This document shows positions 27,419 to 33,559 of a stretch of DNA of 61,328 nucleotides, piece after piece. A model generated the notes under the pieces. That model ran no database searches. It was not told the DNA's origin and worked only from the letters and a program-made list of their open reading frames with translations. The stretch is from Flavobacteriales bacterium (GTDB lineage Bacteria; Bacteroidota; Bacteroidia; Flavobacteriales_E; Vicingaceae), in contig JADYZM010000086.1 in assembly GCA_020853105.1 (NCBI GenBank), positions 1 through 61,328 of the forward strand. The letters are read 5' to 3'. The position numbers were made by a program, and so were the translations under genes. Every line of letters starts with the position of its first letter. Position 1 is the stretch's first letter.

Positions 27419-28717
27419 TTATCCACCAAAATCATCAAAACGTACATTTTCTTTCGGAACACCCCAATCATCACACATTTTCACAACAGCATTATTCATC
27501 ATCGGAGGACCACAGAAATAAAATTCAATATCTTCCGGAGAATCGTGTTTACTTAAATATTGATCTATAACAACCTGATGAACAAATCCAGTAAACCCAT
27601 CTCCTTCTTTATCATTAACATCTTTTTTAATTTTCCAATTATCAGATTCTAACGGCTCAGAAAGAACTAAATAGAACTTAAAGTTTGGAAAATCTTTTTC
27701 TAAGTCTCTAAAATAGTGAATGTAAAACAATTCAGCTTTTGAACGACCGCCATACCAATAGGATACTTTTCTTCCCGTTTTTAAGGTTTTAAATAATTCA
27801 TAAAGATGAGAGCGCATTGGAGCCATTCCTGCTCCACCACCAATGTATAGCATTTCTGCCTCTGAATGATTGATAAAGAATTCACCATAAGGACCAGAAA
27901 TTGTTGCATTATCACCTACTTTTAAATTAAAAATATATGAAGATGCAACACCAGGATTAACATCCATCCAACCATTTTTAGCTCTATCCCAAGGTGGTGT
28001 AGCCACACGAACGTTCAACATAATTTTTCTACCTTCAGCAGGATACGAAGCCATAGAATATGCTCTCACAACTTCTTCTTCATTTTTCATCACAAGAGGC
28101 CAAAGATTGAATTTATCCCAATCTTTCTTAAATTTATCTGGTTCTCCAGGATGATCTTGTGGGTGTGCCGTAATATCCATTTCAGAATATTTAACTGTAC
28201 AAGCCGGTATTTTTATTTGAATATACCCGCCTGCTTGATAATGCATATCCTCTGGAATTTCAACTATAAACTCTTTTATAAAAGTTGCAACGTTATAATT
28301 TGAAACAACCGTAGCTTGCCATTCTTTAATTCCAAGAATTTCTTCATGGATTTGAATTTGCATGTCCTCTTTTACTTTCACTTGACATCCTAATCTCCAG
28401 TTATCTGCAATTTCTTTTCTAGAGAAGTTAGGGGCTTCAGTTGGCAAGATTTCTCCACCACCACTGATTACTTGACATCTACATTGAGCACATGTTCCTC
28501 CACCACCACAAGCAGATGGCAAAAATATTCCTGCATTTCCTAAAGTAGATAATAATGAATTACCTCCATCTACTTCTACAACTTTATCTTTGTTAATAGT
28601 AATTTTTACCTTTCCGGAAGAAGTTAATTTCGCTTTTGCAAACAAAAGTATGCTTACAAGAATTAAAGTAACTATTAGAAAAACTACAGCTGCTAATATT
28701 ATTAATCCAAAATCCAT
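27419..28717 (-). CDS. nqrF: Na+-translocating NADH:quinone reductase subunit F
   Basis: A 432-residue subunit that takes electrons from NADH. One N-terminal helix (about 3-27) anchors it. The 2Fe-2S ferredoxin domain has cysteines at 70, 76, 79 and 111 (CGGGGTCAQC then GCQV). The FAD-binding part has RAYSMASYP, and the NADH-binding part has GGGAGMAPMRSHLYEL and a C-terminal YFCGPPMMN. It passes electrons through FAD and 2Fe-2S to the membrane subunits. It is last in the operon nqrABCDEF and ends at a shared terminator. Confidence 0.97.
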   Translation of the reverse strand: MDFGLIILAAVVFLIVTLILVSILLFAKAKLTSSGKVKITINKDKVVEVDGGNSLLSTLGNAGIFLPSACGGGGTCAQCRCQVISGGGEILPTEAPNFSRKEIADNWRLGCQVKVKEDMQIQIHEEILGIKEWQATVVSNYNVATFIKEFIVEIPEDMHYQAGGYIQIKIPACTVKYSEMDITAHPQDHPGEPDKFKKDWDKFNLWPLVMKNEEEVVRAYSMASYPAEGRKIMLNVRVATPPWDRAKNGWMDVNPGVASSYIFNLKVGDNATISGPYGEFFINHSEAEMLYIGGGAGMAPMRSHLYELFKTLKTGRKVSYWYGGRSKAELFYIHYFRDLEKDFPNFKFYLVLSEPLESDNWKIKKDVNDKEGDGFTGFVHQVVIDQYLSKHDSPEDIEFYFCGPPMMNNAVVKMCDDWGVPKENVRFDDFGG

Positions 28718-28727
28718 ATATCAAATA

Positions 28728-29342
28728 TTAAAGTTCGAAACCTAAGAAACCTAAAAATGCTAATCCCATTAGACTAGTTAAAACAAATGCTATTCCAACA
28801 CCTCTCAATGGAGCAGAAATATGAGAATATTTAATTTTTTCTCTGATGGCTGCTAATAAAACAATAGCAATACACCAACCCAAACCAGAGCCTAGACTAT
28901 AAATAGTTGCTTCCCCAACATTATTAAATTGTTTTTGTTGCATAAAAAGAGCTGCTCCTAAAATTGCACAGTTTACAGCGATTAGAGGTAAGAAAATACC
29001 TAAAGCTCCATACAATGATGGTGAGAATTTTTCTACTGACATTTCAACCAATTGTACAATTGATGCAATTACGGCAATAAATAAAATAAAGCTTAAAAAA
29101 CTCAAATCAATTGTTGCATACTCTTCTCCCATCCATGATAATGCACCTTCTTTTAGTACTAAGGTTTCTAGAAGATAATTCACAGGAACAGTAACAACTA
29201 ATACAAATATTACAGCCGCACCGAGTCCAACAGCTGTTTTTACGGTCTTTGAAACTGCCAAATAAGAACACATGCCAAGAAAAAATGTGAAAATCATATT
29301 TTCTATGAAAGCACTTTTGATAAATAATTTAAATAATTCCAT
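28728..29342 (-). CDS. nqrE: Na+-translocating NADH:quinone reductase subunit E
   Basis: A 204-residue integral membrane subunit with six helices, of the NqrD/NqrE (RnfA/E) fold. It contains the conserved half-membrane turns FTFFLGMCSYLAVS and AVNCAILGAALF, where cysteines at the pseudo-symmetric centre bind an Fe centre in the known enzyme (C25 and C109-C110 region, by approximate position). It forms part of the sodium and electron path. It lies 10 bases upstream of nqrF and 30 after nqrD. Confidence 0.96.
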   Translation of the reverse strand: MELFKLFIKSAFIENMIFTFFLGMCSYLAVSKTVKTAVGLGAAVIFVLVVTVPVNYLLETLVLKEGALSWMGEEYATIDLSFLSFILFIAVIASIVQLVEMSVEKFSPSLYGALGIFLPLIAVNCAILGAALFMQQKQFNNVGEATIYSLGSGLGWCIAIVLLAAIREKIKYSHISAPLRGVGIAFVLTSLMGLAFLGFLGFEL

Positions 29343-29372: not shown

Positions 29373-30035
29373 TTATGCTTCTATTAAATCAGGATTTTTT
29401 GCTCGTTGGAACCAAATAATCATTGCAACGATTACCAATGATGATGGCGGTAACAACATCAAACCATTATTTTCATAACCAAATTGATATACACTTTCGG
29501 GAATTATTGAAAGTTTACCAATACCTGGTAATGTAATGGTTCCGGAACCTATTACTTCTTTAAATAATGCAACTATTACAAGAATCATACTGTATCCCAA
29601 TCCATTTCCAATACCATCTAAAAATGAAGGCCAAGGTTTGTTTCCTAAAGCGAAAGCTTCAAATCGACCCATTAAAATACAGTTAGTGATAATAAGACCA
29701 ACAAATACGGATAATTGTTTACTTACATCATATACATACGCTTTTAGAATTTGGTCAACACAAATTACCAAGAATGCAGCTACCACTAATTGAACGATGA
29801 TTCTAATTCTACTGGGAATTAAATTTCTCATTGCAGATATAACAACATTACCTAATGCAGTTACAGCCATAACTGCAAAACCCATTACCAAGGCATTATC
29901 CATTTGAACAGTAACTGCTAAAGCTGAACAAATGCCCAATATTTGAATCGTAACTGGGTTTGTTTTGTTTAACGGGCTTGTTATAAGTTCTTTATTTTTC
30001 TTTGAAAATAAAGGTTCGCTTTTTGTTTCGCTCAT
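29373..30035 (-). CDS. nqrD: Na+-translocating NADH:quinone reductase subunit D
   Basis: A 220-residue integral membrane subunit homologous to NqrE, with six helices. It contains QILGICSALAVTVQMDNALVMG and LIITNCILMGRFEAFAL, the two inverted half-helices with cysteines that pair with those of NqrE around an Fe centre. A short cytosolic N-terminus precedes the first helix. It sits between nqrC (32 bases) and nqrE (30 bases). Confidence 0.96.
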   Translation of the reverse strand: MSETKSEPLFSKKNKELITSPLNKTNPVTIQILGICSALAVTVQMDNALVMGFAVMAVTALGNVVISAMRNLIPSRIRIIVQLVVAAFLVICVDQILKAYVYDVSKQLSVFVGLIITNCILMGRFEAFALGNKPWPSFLDGIGNGLGYSMILVIVALFKEVIGSGTITLPGIGKLSIIPESVYQFGYENNGLMLLPPSSLVIVAMIIWFQRAKNPDLIEA

Positions 30036-30067: not shown

Positions 30068-30982
30068 TTATTTAGCTGAAGTTGTATCACTTGCAACAGC
30101 AGCTGTTGCTCCACTTGCTGCATCTGTACTATCAGTAGCTGTAGCGACAACAGTTGTTGTACCTGAAAATTCAGGATGACTTTTGAAAAAATTATAATAA
30201 ACTTCAATTGTTCTAATTAACATTTCACCAACACCAACTCCTGTAAAAGTAGCACCACTGATACCATCAACTTCAAATTCATTAGGTTCATGGCTACCTG
30301 GTTTTATTACACGTATTGGAACAAATTTAGTACCGTCAGAAATTTTCTTTTTGATAAACTCTTCTTGAAACCACGGCTCAACAATTTTAGATCCCAAACC
30401 TGGGGTTTCTCCTTTATGGTCAAATACAGCACCACTGATAGTTACTAAATCAGAGTTTAATCCAATATAACCCCAAACATCATCCCACAAACCTTTTCCA
30501 CTTGCTGCAAGTACATAATAAGTAGCTCCATTAAATTCACATACAAAAATTGGAAAATGGATGTCTTTTGACTTACTCAATGCTTCTTTAGTAGCTTCCG
30601 GATTTCCTTTGTGTTGGTTCATAATTGGTTTTATGAACTTTGAATACTCTTTTCTTAAATCTATATTGAATGCATCTAACTTATCTGTTGCAGAAATTGG
30701 ATCTGTGCTTTTTTTATCGCTCAAAATATTACCTTGATAATCAATAGTAATTCTTCTCTTTATATAGTCATTAAACACTTTACCAGCTTGTTCTCGTTGA
30801 ATTCCTTTTGTCTCAGAAATTCCAATTGCTTGTAATATATTTTGCATTTTTTCGTTTGAAATGTTAGCACTTTGAGCTGGTCCTAAACTCATAGAAACAT
30901 AGGCTAACAATCCGCCAACCAATACTACCATAATAGTAGCAAAAGTTAGTGTATAAATATTACTTTCTCTGTCGAATCCCAT
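30068..30982 (-). CDS. nqrC: Na+-translocating NADH:quinone reductase subunit C
   Basis: A 304-residue subunit with one N-terminal helix (about 10-30) and a periplasmic FMN-binding domain. The flavin attachment motif D239-G-I-S-G-A-T245 fits the ApbE consensus Dxx(S/T)GAT, T245 being the site of covalent FMN. It is longer than usual at the C-terminus by an Ala/Thr/Ser-rich tail (about 272-304), which holds a second perfect match, D287-A-A-S-G-A-T293. Whether the tail is flavinylated is unknown. It is three bases after nqrB. Confidence 0.96.
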   Translation of the reverse strand: MGFDRESNIYTLTFATIMVVLVGGLLAYVSMSLGPAQSANISNEKMQNILQAIGISETKGIQREQAGKVFNDYIKRRITIDYQGNILSDKKSTDPISATDKLDAFNIDLRKEYSKFIKPIMNQHKGNPEATKEALSKSKDIHFPIFVCEFNGATYYVLAASGKGLWDDVWGYIGLNSDLVTISGAVFDHKGETPGLGSKIVEPWFQEEFIKKKISDGTKFVPIRVIKPGSHEPNEFEVDGISGATFTGVGVGEMLIRTIEVYYNFFKSHPEFSGTTTVVATATDSTDAASGATAAVASDTTSAK

Positions 30983-30984
30983 AA

Positions 30985-32151
30985 TTATGCTGTTTTAATT
31001 CTTTTTAATCTTCTATTGATATTTGAATTCACTACTATTGTATCAATTAATGGTGCAACAACATTACCAAGTAATATTGCCAACATTACACCTTCCGGAT
31101 ATGCAGGGTTTGCAACGCGAATCAGGATAGCCATAACTCCGATTAATAAACCATAAATAATTTTTCCGGTATTGGTTTGTGAAGCGGTAACTGGGTCTGT
31201 TGCCATAAATACAGCTCCAAACATAAAACCACCCAATACTAAATGATATACAGCAGGTAACTCAAAGTATGGATTACCTCCTACAGCGTTAAACATTAGA
31301 CCGGTTAAAAACCCTCCTGCTATCATAGATAACATAATTCTCAAGCTGCCAACTCCTGTTGCAATTAATATCAAAGCGCCTAACCCTATTGCAATAACTG
31401 ATGTTTCACCAATTGAACCTGGAATAAAGCCAATAATAGAATCCATTAGACTTGGAATTGCTTCAACCCCTCCTTCAATTACATTACTTAATGGAGTTGC
31501 TCCAGAAAAACCATCTATTGCCTTTCCTTCTCCTAAACTTATCCATACTTGGTCTCCGGACATTTTAGTTGGATACGCAAAAAATAAAAATGCTCGAGCA
31601 ACAAGTGCTACGTTAACCACATTCATTCCTGTTCCGCCAAATACTTCCTTTCCAATAACCACAGCAAAAATTGTTGCTATTGCAACCATCCACAATGGAA
31701 CACCAACAGGAACAATTAATGGTATTAACATCCCAGTTACTAAAAATCCTTCATGAATTGCATGTTTATTTATTGTAGCAAAAATAAATTCTACACCTAA
31801 TCCAACAGCATAGGAAACAATAACAATTGGTAAAACTAATTTTGCTCCATAGAAAAATTTATCCCAAAACATTGAACATACATTATCAGCAGAGGTAATT
31901 TCACCAATAGCAAGAAAATGTTGATGACCAACATTATACATTCCAAATAACAATGCCGGAATCAAAGCCAAAACAACCATTGACATGGTTCTTTTCAAGT
32001 CAATACCGTCTTTGATATGAACACCATTGTGATTAGTATGACCCGGTACAAATAAAAAAGTGTACGTACCATCCCAAACCGTATATGCCAATGGAAACTT
32101 ACCATCGGATTTAGGTTTGATTTTTTGCATAAAACTTTCTAAAGCTTTCAT
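30985..32151 (-). CDS. nqrB: Na+-translocating NADH:quinone reductase subunit B
   Basis: A 388-residue membrane subunit with about ten helices, homologous to RnfD. The covalent FMN motif is D213-G-F-S-G-A-T219 in IDGFSGATPLSNV. It carries FMN and probably riboflavin and forms part of the sodium channel and quinone site. The N-terminal segment of about 50 residues is cytosolic and interacts with NqrA in the known structure. It follows nqrA by 58 bases and precedes nqrC by two. Confidence 0.97.
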   Translation of the reverse strand: MKALESFMQKIKPKSDGKFPLAYTVWDGTYTFLFVPGHTNHNGVHIKDGIDLKRTMSMVVLALIPALLFGMYNVGHQHFLAIGEITSADNVCSMFWDKFFYGAKLVLPIVIVSYAVGLGVEFIFATINKHAIHEGFLVTGMLIPLIVPVGVPLWMVAIATIFAVVIGKEVFGGTGMNVVNVALVARAFLFFAYPTKMSGDQVWISLGEGKAIDGFSGATPLSNVIEGGVEAIPSLMDSIIGFIPGSIGETSVIAIGLGALILIATGVGSLRIMLSMIAGGFLTGLMFNAVGGNPYFELPAVYHLVLGGFMFGAVFMATDPVTASQTNTGKIIYGLLIGVMAILIRVANPAYPEGVMLAILLGNVVAPLIDTIVVNSNINRRLKRIKTA

Positions 32152-32209: not shown

Positions 32210-33559
32210 TTAACTACACTCTTTTTTCACTAGATTCAATGCTTCTCTAACAATTTTTTGAGTGCTAATTTTTGAAGTACATGCATATTCGCACAAAGCA
32301 AAATCTTCGGGAGCAACTTCATAAACTCCAAGTTGTTCCATTCTGTCAATATCCTCTGTTATCATAGCTTTAACCAAATACACGGGATAAATATCCATTG
32401 GGAATACCTTTTCATATTCACCAGTAACAACAAAAGCCCTTTCTTCACCATTACAGTTCGTATTCAAATCATATTCCTTATTTGGTGTTAACCATGAGCA
32501 AAATGTTCTTGACAAGCTGAATTTATCAAACCCTGGAGCAATCCAACCAAAAAACTGATCATTTCCACCTTCGGGTATGACAGATAATTGATAATCATAA
32601 AATCCCAAATGTCCATTTGCAGAAATTTGTGATCCTGATAGTGGGTTACCACTTATAAATCTACCCCCATCTTCAACATTTCCACTAACTATATCGGTGA
32701 TTTTTGCTCCTAATACGGTTTTAATATATTTTGGTGATTTAACTTTTGATCCAACAAAAGCAACCGTTCTTGATGCGTCGAACTTACCTTCTTTAAATAA
32801 TTTTCCTATAGTCAACACATCTAATGCTCGTAACACCCATACTACTTCCCCTTTATTTACAGGATCAATATGGTGAGCCTGAATTCCAACATTTCCTGCC
32901 GGATGTGGTCCATAAAATCTATTTATTTGAACATTTTTAGCTCCAGAAAATGCAGCATCAACATTGTCATTACCAGAGTTGTTTAGGTGTACCTTACCGT
33001 CTGTTAATTTTGCAAGTGCATTTAATCCTGCTTGAAAAATTTCTGTTTGACCATGAACAACAAAACTATAATCCGGTGCTAATGGCGCTGAGTCAAAAGT
33101 TGAAATGAAAATTGCTTTTGGTTTAACAGCAGGATTAGCGATAACATCATAAGGACGTTGACGAATAAATGGCCATACACCACTTTTTAATAAATTTTCA
33201 ATAATCTCTTCTCTGGTTAACGAACTGGTATCCGCTTGTTTGAATGATTCATAGGACGATTGACCGTCAGATTTAACCTTCACATCAACAATTCTTCTTT
33301 TTTCAGCTCTGTTAATTTCAACTACCTCTCCACTAATTGGTGATGTAAATAGTATTTTATCGTTTTCTTTATCACAAAACAATGGTGAACCAGCTTTAAC
33401 TTTATCGCCTACTTTTACAAGTAATTTTGGGATAAGAGTCGGAAAATTTTCAGGTTTTAGAACTATTTCAGAAACATTTACGGGGTTTGCGTATATTTTT
33501 TCAGCTACGCCTTTGAGTTTAATATCAACTCCTTTTCGAATTTTAATTTCTTTTGACAT
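32210..33559 (-). CDS. nqrA: Na+-translocating NADH:quinone reductase subunit A
   Basis: A 449-residue soluble subunit on the cytosolic face. The N-terminus (KIRKGVDIKLKGVAE) with a following barrel-sandwich domain (KVGDKVKAGSPLFCDKEN...FTSPISGEVVEINRAEKRR) and the ARPYDVIANP-like segment (QRPYDVIANPAVKPKAIFI) are diagnostic. It has no cofactor and contributes to quinone binding. It is first in the operon, with a good promoter candidate 26 bases upstream of its ATG. Confidence 0.97.
   Translation of the reverse strand: MSKEIKIRKGVDIKLKGVAEKIYANPVNVSEIVLKPENFPTLIPKLLVKVGDKVKAGSPLFCDKENDKILFTSPISGEVVEINRAEKRRIVDVKVKSDGQSSYESFKQADTSSLTREEIIENLLKSGVWPFIRQRPYDVIANPAVKPKAIFISTFDSAPLAPDYSFVVHGQTEIFQAGLNALAKLTDGKVHLNNSGNDNVDAAFSGAKNVQINRFYGPHPAGNVGIQAHHIDPVNKGEVVWVLRALDVLTIGKLFKEGKFDASRTVAFVGSKVKSPKYIKTVLGAKITDIVSGNVEDGGRFISGNPLSGSQISANGHLGFYDYQLSVIPEGGNDQFFGWIAPGFDKFSLSRTFCSWLTPNKEYDLNTNCNGEERAFVVTGEYEKVFPMDIYPVYLVKAMITEDIDRMEQLGVYEVAPEDFALCEYACTSKISTQKIVREALNLVKKECS

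Follow-up and report, generated by a model that had tools for sequence, protein, structure and literature searches.

A second ApbE-motif match in the C-terminal tail of a Flavobacteriales NqrC, probably incidental

In the 61,328-nucleotide stretch of Flavobacteriales DNA analyzed here (the window), we observe an NqrC subunit that carries, in addition to its canonical flavin site, a second complete match to the heptapeptide D-x-x-[ST]-G-A-[ST] of ApbE substrates. This second match, DAASGAT, stands 11 residues before the C-terminus. Very probably, it is an incidental product of drift in a disordered, low-complexity tail of one species, with the functional FMN residing on T245 of the canonical site. 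The motif letters themselves are present, and no selected feature is supported.

The two motifs and their setting

The features relevant to this analysis are as follows, in window coordinates.

32210-33559, minus strand: nqrA
30985-32151, minus strand: nqrB
31495..31515, minus strand: FMN attachment motif DGFSGAT of NqrB, the comparison site (translation, genome pattern search)
30068-30982, minus strand: nqrC, 304 aa, TIGR01938, flanked by nqrA, B, D, E and F
30248..30268, minus strand: canonical FMN motif DGISGAT of NqrC, residues 239-245 (translation)
30071..30166, minus strand: C-terminal tail of NqrC, residues 273-304, Ala/Thr/Ser-rich and predicted to be disordered
30104..30124, minus strand: second motif DAASGAT of NqrC, residues 287-293 (translation)
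29373-30035, minus strand: nqrD
28728-29342, minus strand: nqrE
27419-28717, minus strand: nqrF

The nqrABCDEF operon is complete on the minus strand, with all six subunits identified in the window, and NqrC scores 166.9 bits against TIGR01938, above the family cut-off of 144. PF04205 (FMN_bind) matches NqrC once, as a single stretch (residues 164-257) that encloses DGISGAT, and NqrC contains no further domain of this kind. Across nine orthologues, D239, G240 and S242-T245 are invariant, and T245 is the residue expected to carry FMN. In the Na+-NQR, such as that of Vibrio, NqrC bears one FMN on the Thr of SGAT. The protein described here has the domain, the operon context and the canonical DGISGAT in common with these enzymes and differs from the Vibrio type by a C-terminal extension of 32 residues, predicted to be disordered, that contains the second motif.

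The translation reads ...EVDGISGAT(239-245)...TDSTDAASGAT(287-293)AAVASDTTSAK, with the second heptapeptide encoded by GAT GCA GCA AGT GGA GCA ACA from window position 30124 down to 30104. The sequence, coordinates and numbering given for this second match in the initial annotation are thus exact. DAASGAT also conforms to the consensus D-[GAIQ]-[IALVF]-[ST]-G-A-[ST] of Vibrio cholerae ApbE (PMC10722498), including at the variable positions.

An AlphaFold2 model of NqrC, built on the alignment of the nine orthologues, has a mean pLDDT of 79, with most of the domain above 85; residues 276-304 are the sole long stretch below 50 (block means of 30-33). The tail is therefore predicted to be disordered and accessible and to form no flavin pocket itself, and the topology of the NqrC family would place it in the periplasm.

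Conservation and composition of the tail

To place the motif among its relatives, we compared NqrC from three other genomes of the genus (L002, L003 and L005) and from a close relative, Flavobacteriales bacterium CG_4_9_14_3_um_filter_32_8 (L032), whose NqrC is the nearest to the window's in the alignment (70% identity). The species itself is represented by one genome, such that the comparison is between species. The four sister proteins extend for 55, 63, 56 and 55 residues beyond the first motif, versus 59 residues here, and a second [ST]GA[ST] occurs in none of these four tails. When the window's NqrC is aligned with that of L032, its second motif lies inside a stretch of 9 residues, following a common 'DST', for which L032 has no counterpart. 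In the nearest other genera (L004, L006 and L033-L039), NqrC is tailless and ends within two residues of ..NPEF/NSEF, right after the FMN domain; as regards the close relatives compared, the tail is confined to the genus. More broadly, the window's NqrC is the only one with two sites among 86 distinct homologues from the family, class and phylum, the other 85 having no second site (one of the homologues compared, L041, is truncated ahead of the site). The other long NqrC tails (L008, L010 and L082) are likewise without a second motif.

These comparisons bear on the initial annotation in two ways. It is right that a single site is the norm for NqrC, as no other homologue checked has two. Its proposal that the tail might host a second FMN, or compete consequentially with the true site, is not supported by the orthologue comparison, in which the motif has no counterpart in any of the four sister tails of similar length. 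By the annotation's own test, namely absence of the motif from close orthologues with similar tails, a conserved function is refuted. A useful motif can also be of recent origin, in which case a function in this species would be compatible with its absence from the sisters.

The sister tails abound in D-S/T pairs (for example, SDSTLVSVNDSIK). Tails with repeated D-S/T-x pairs are found in several lineages of the class (L002, L003, L005, L032, L008 and L010), with C-termini such as DSTLVS..NDSIK, DSLPADSLPVDTL and DSLGMSMDSL.

The last 32 residues of the window's NqrC, SGTTTVVATATDSTDAASGATAAVASDTTSAK, comprise 9 Thr, 9 Ala, 5 Ser, 3 Val, 3 Asp, 2 Gly and 1 Lys. In a million shuffles of these residues, Dxx[ST]GAT arises in 0.69%, Dxx[ST]GA[ST] in 1.07% and [ST]GA[ST] in 10.7%. 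The composition thus makes the full match only moderately unlikely, and because the motif was singled out only once it had been seen, this rarity can argue against chance no more than weakly. The initial annotation had also raised a chance origin in an Ala/Thr/Ser-rich tail, which, given this composition and the absence from sister species, is the best explanation. As it stands, the case mainly shows the ease with which a seven-residue consensus arises in an Ala/Thr/Ser/Asp tail.

Neither duplication nor slippage is shown as the route to the motif. The codons of the two heptapeptides differ (GATGGTATCAGTGGTGCTAC versus GATGCAGCAAGTGGAGCAAC), and the internal repeat similarity observed within the tail is reached by 62-86% of codon-shuffled tails. 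The exact tail DNA was not found in the viral contigs searched. Across the 2.87 Mb genome, the DNA pattern for Dxx[ST]GAT has seven matches, three of which lie in nqrB and nqrC. The remaining four are not convincing as true motif proteins: one has Arg in place of Ser/Thr, two are outside any open frame of more than 80 codons, and one is in a frame that looks non-coding.

ApbE and the possible fates of the tail

The genome encodes one ApbE (335 aa), on a different contig from nqrC, and one FMN_bind protein, i.e., no wider set of ApbE targets. The ApbE has a lipobox-like sequence at its N-terminus; with this lipoprotein-like signal, the enzyme and the NqrC tail should share the periplasm, the compartment expected for both from knowledge of their families.

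Whether the tail could be modified there can be judged from engineered and natural precedents. In the Flavin-tag approach (Tong et al. 2021, as presented in PMC12052999), the minimal ApbE motif is seven residues, which at a protein terminus are enough for Vibrio ApbE, and terminal tags perform best; as here, the motif lies in an accessible terminal peptide. In Flavin-fixing (PMC10722498), the F1 variant of PpSB1-LOV (D60, R61A, D62A, Q63S, L64G, G65A, R66T) spells the very same heptapeptide, DAASGAT, and is flavinylated by V. cholerae ApbE with up to 91% covalent flavin. Unlike these engineered motifs, the one described here is a natural and unconserved candidate site. A natural parallel is provided by ApbE-associated FMN_red proteins (PMC11334425), whose own ApbE flavinylates unstructured C-terminal extensions bearing one to two motifs. 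In those proteins, however, a flavin pocket already exists to receive the flavin, and the encoding gene adjoins apbE, whereas in NqrC a pocket is evident only for the T245 flavin and apbE is on another contig. By analogy with these systems, it is plausible that the tail could serve biochemically as an ApbE substrate and that NqrC could undergo incidental, partial double flavinylation.

In the explanation we favor, drift in the low-complexity tail would have produced DAASGAT in one species while NqrC works ordinarily with its FMN on T245. The periplasmic tail would meet the cell's single ApbE, and some T293 may gain FMN as a by-product, but this flavin would have neither a folded pocket to sit in nor a selected role. 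Three observations pull against an incidental reading: the match is exact, even at the variable consensus positions (PMC10722498); a full match has only about a 1% likelihood by chance in this tail; and NqrC belongs to the small set of cellular proteins known to encounter ApbE. A stronger version, in which T293 is substantially flavinylated by the cell's ApbE as a natural flavin-tag without selected function, is an overlapping sub-case of the incidental explanation, and we place its chances slightly short of even. The sufficiency of seven terminal residues, the modification of an identical heptapeptide in PpSB1-LOV and of unstructured FMN_red extensions, and the single lipobox-bearing ApbE all argue for it. 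These precedents are tempered by the fact that the LOV flavin has its own pocket and that the Flavin-tag work used overexpressed V. cholerae ApbE, with the FAD supply raised in some set-ups; this organism's ApbE may differ in specificity, and its activity in the cell may be limiting. Flavinylation of the tail, if it occurs, would provide a natural example of off-domain modification by ApbE and would caution that periplasmic low-complexity tails can meet the short ApbE motif by chance.

We infer that the second motif has no functional role. A flavinylated T293 with a role, in a species-specific NqrC whose extra tethered FMN would alter the pump's electron flow or its production of reactive oxygen, is quite improbable; this estimate and that for modification are judgements rather than computed values. 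Slightly less probable still is that the tail flavin forms a genuine second redox centre, such as a tethered shuttle that hands electrons from the pump on to acceptors in the periplasm. The exactness of the motif and the existence of multi-flavinylated proteins (PMC8238504, PMC10339131), including RnfG, would fit such a centre, as there too an NqrC/RnfG-like chain offers several potential sites for FMN. However, the known multi-FMN proteins repeat whole FMN-binding domains, whereas NqrC here repeats the heptapeptide only, with one PF04205 stretch in the protein, one such match in the genome and a motif that is unconserved in the genus; a selected second redox site is thus unsupported. Least probable, to the point of being hardly credible, is a role for the tail as an ApbE decoy or competitor by which T245 flavinylation would be regulated. 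All that speaks for it is that both sites share a chain and would share an enzyme, while the motif is unconserved and a decoy in cis, present once for each target, would serve no evident purpose in regulation.

Canonical-site variation in Bacteroidota

The canonical NqrC site is more variable in Bacteroidota than the textbook motif implies. Among the homologues examined, it is SGAT in 31, SGGT in 31, AGAT in 10, TGAT in 3, TGGT in 3, SGST in several and GGGT in one. Departures from [ST]GA[ST] are frequent in the same class and phylum (L008-L028, L054-L061, L065-L067, L074 and L083-L100). A limited literature search found no mention of the SGGT variant and no description of a matching, relaxed ApbE specificity. 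In genomes with both sites readable, NqrB nearly always keeps SGAT or TGAT where NqrC is often SGGT, which suggests, from sequence comparison, that these Bacteroidota do not require Ala as the sixth residue of the motif. The ApbE of these bacteria should have a correspondingly looser specificity.
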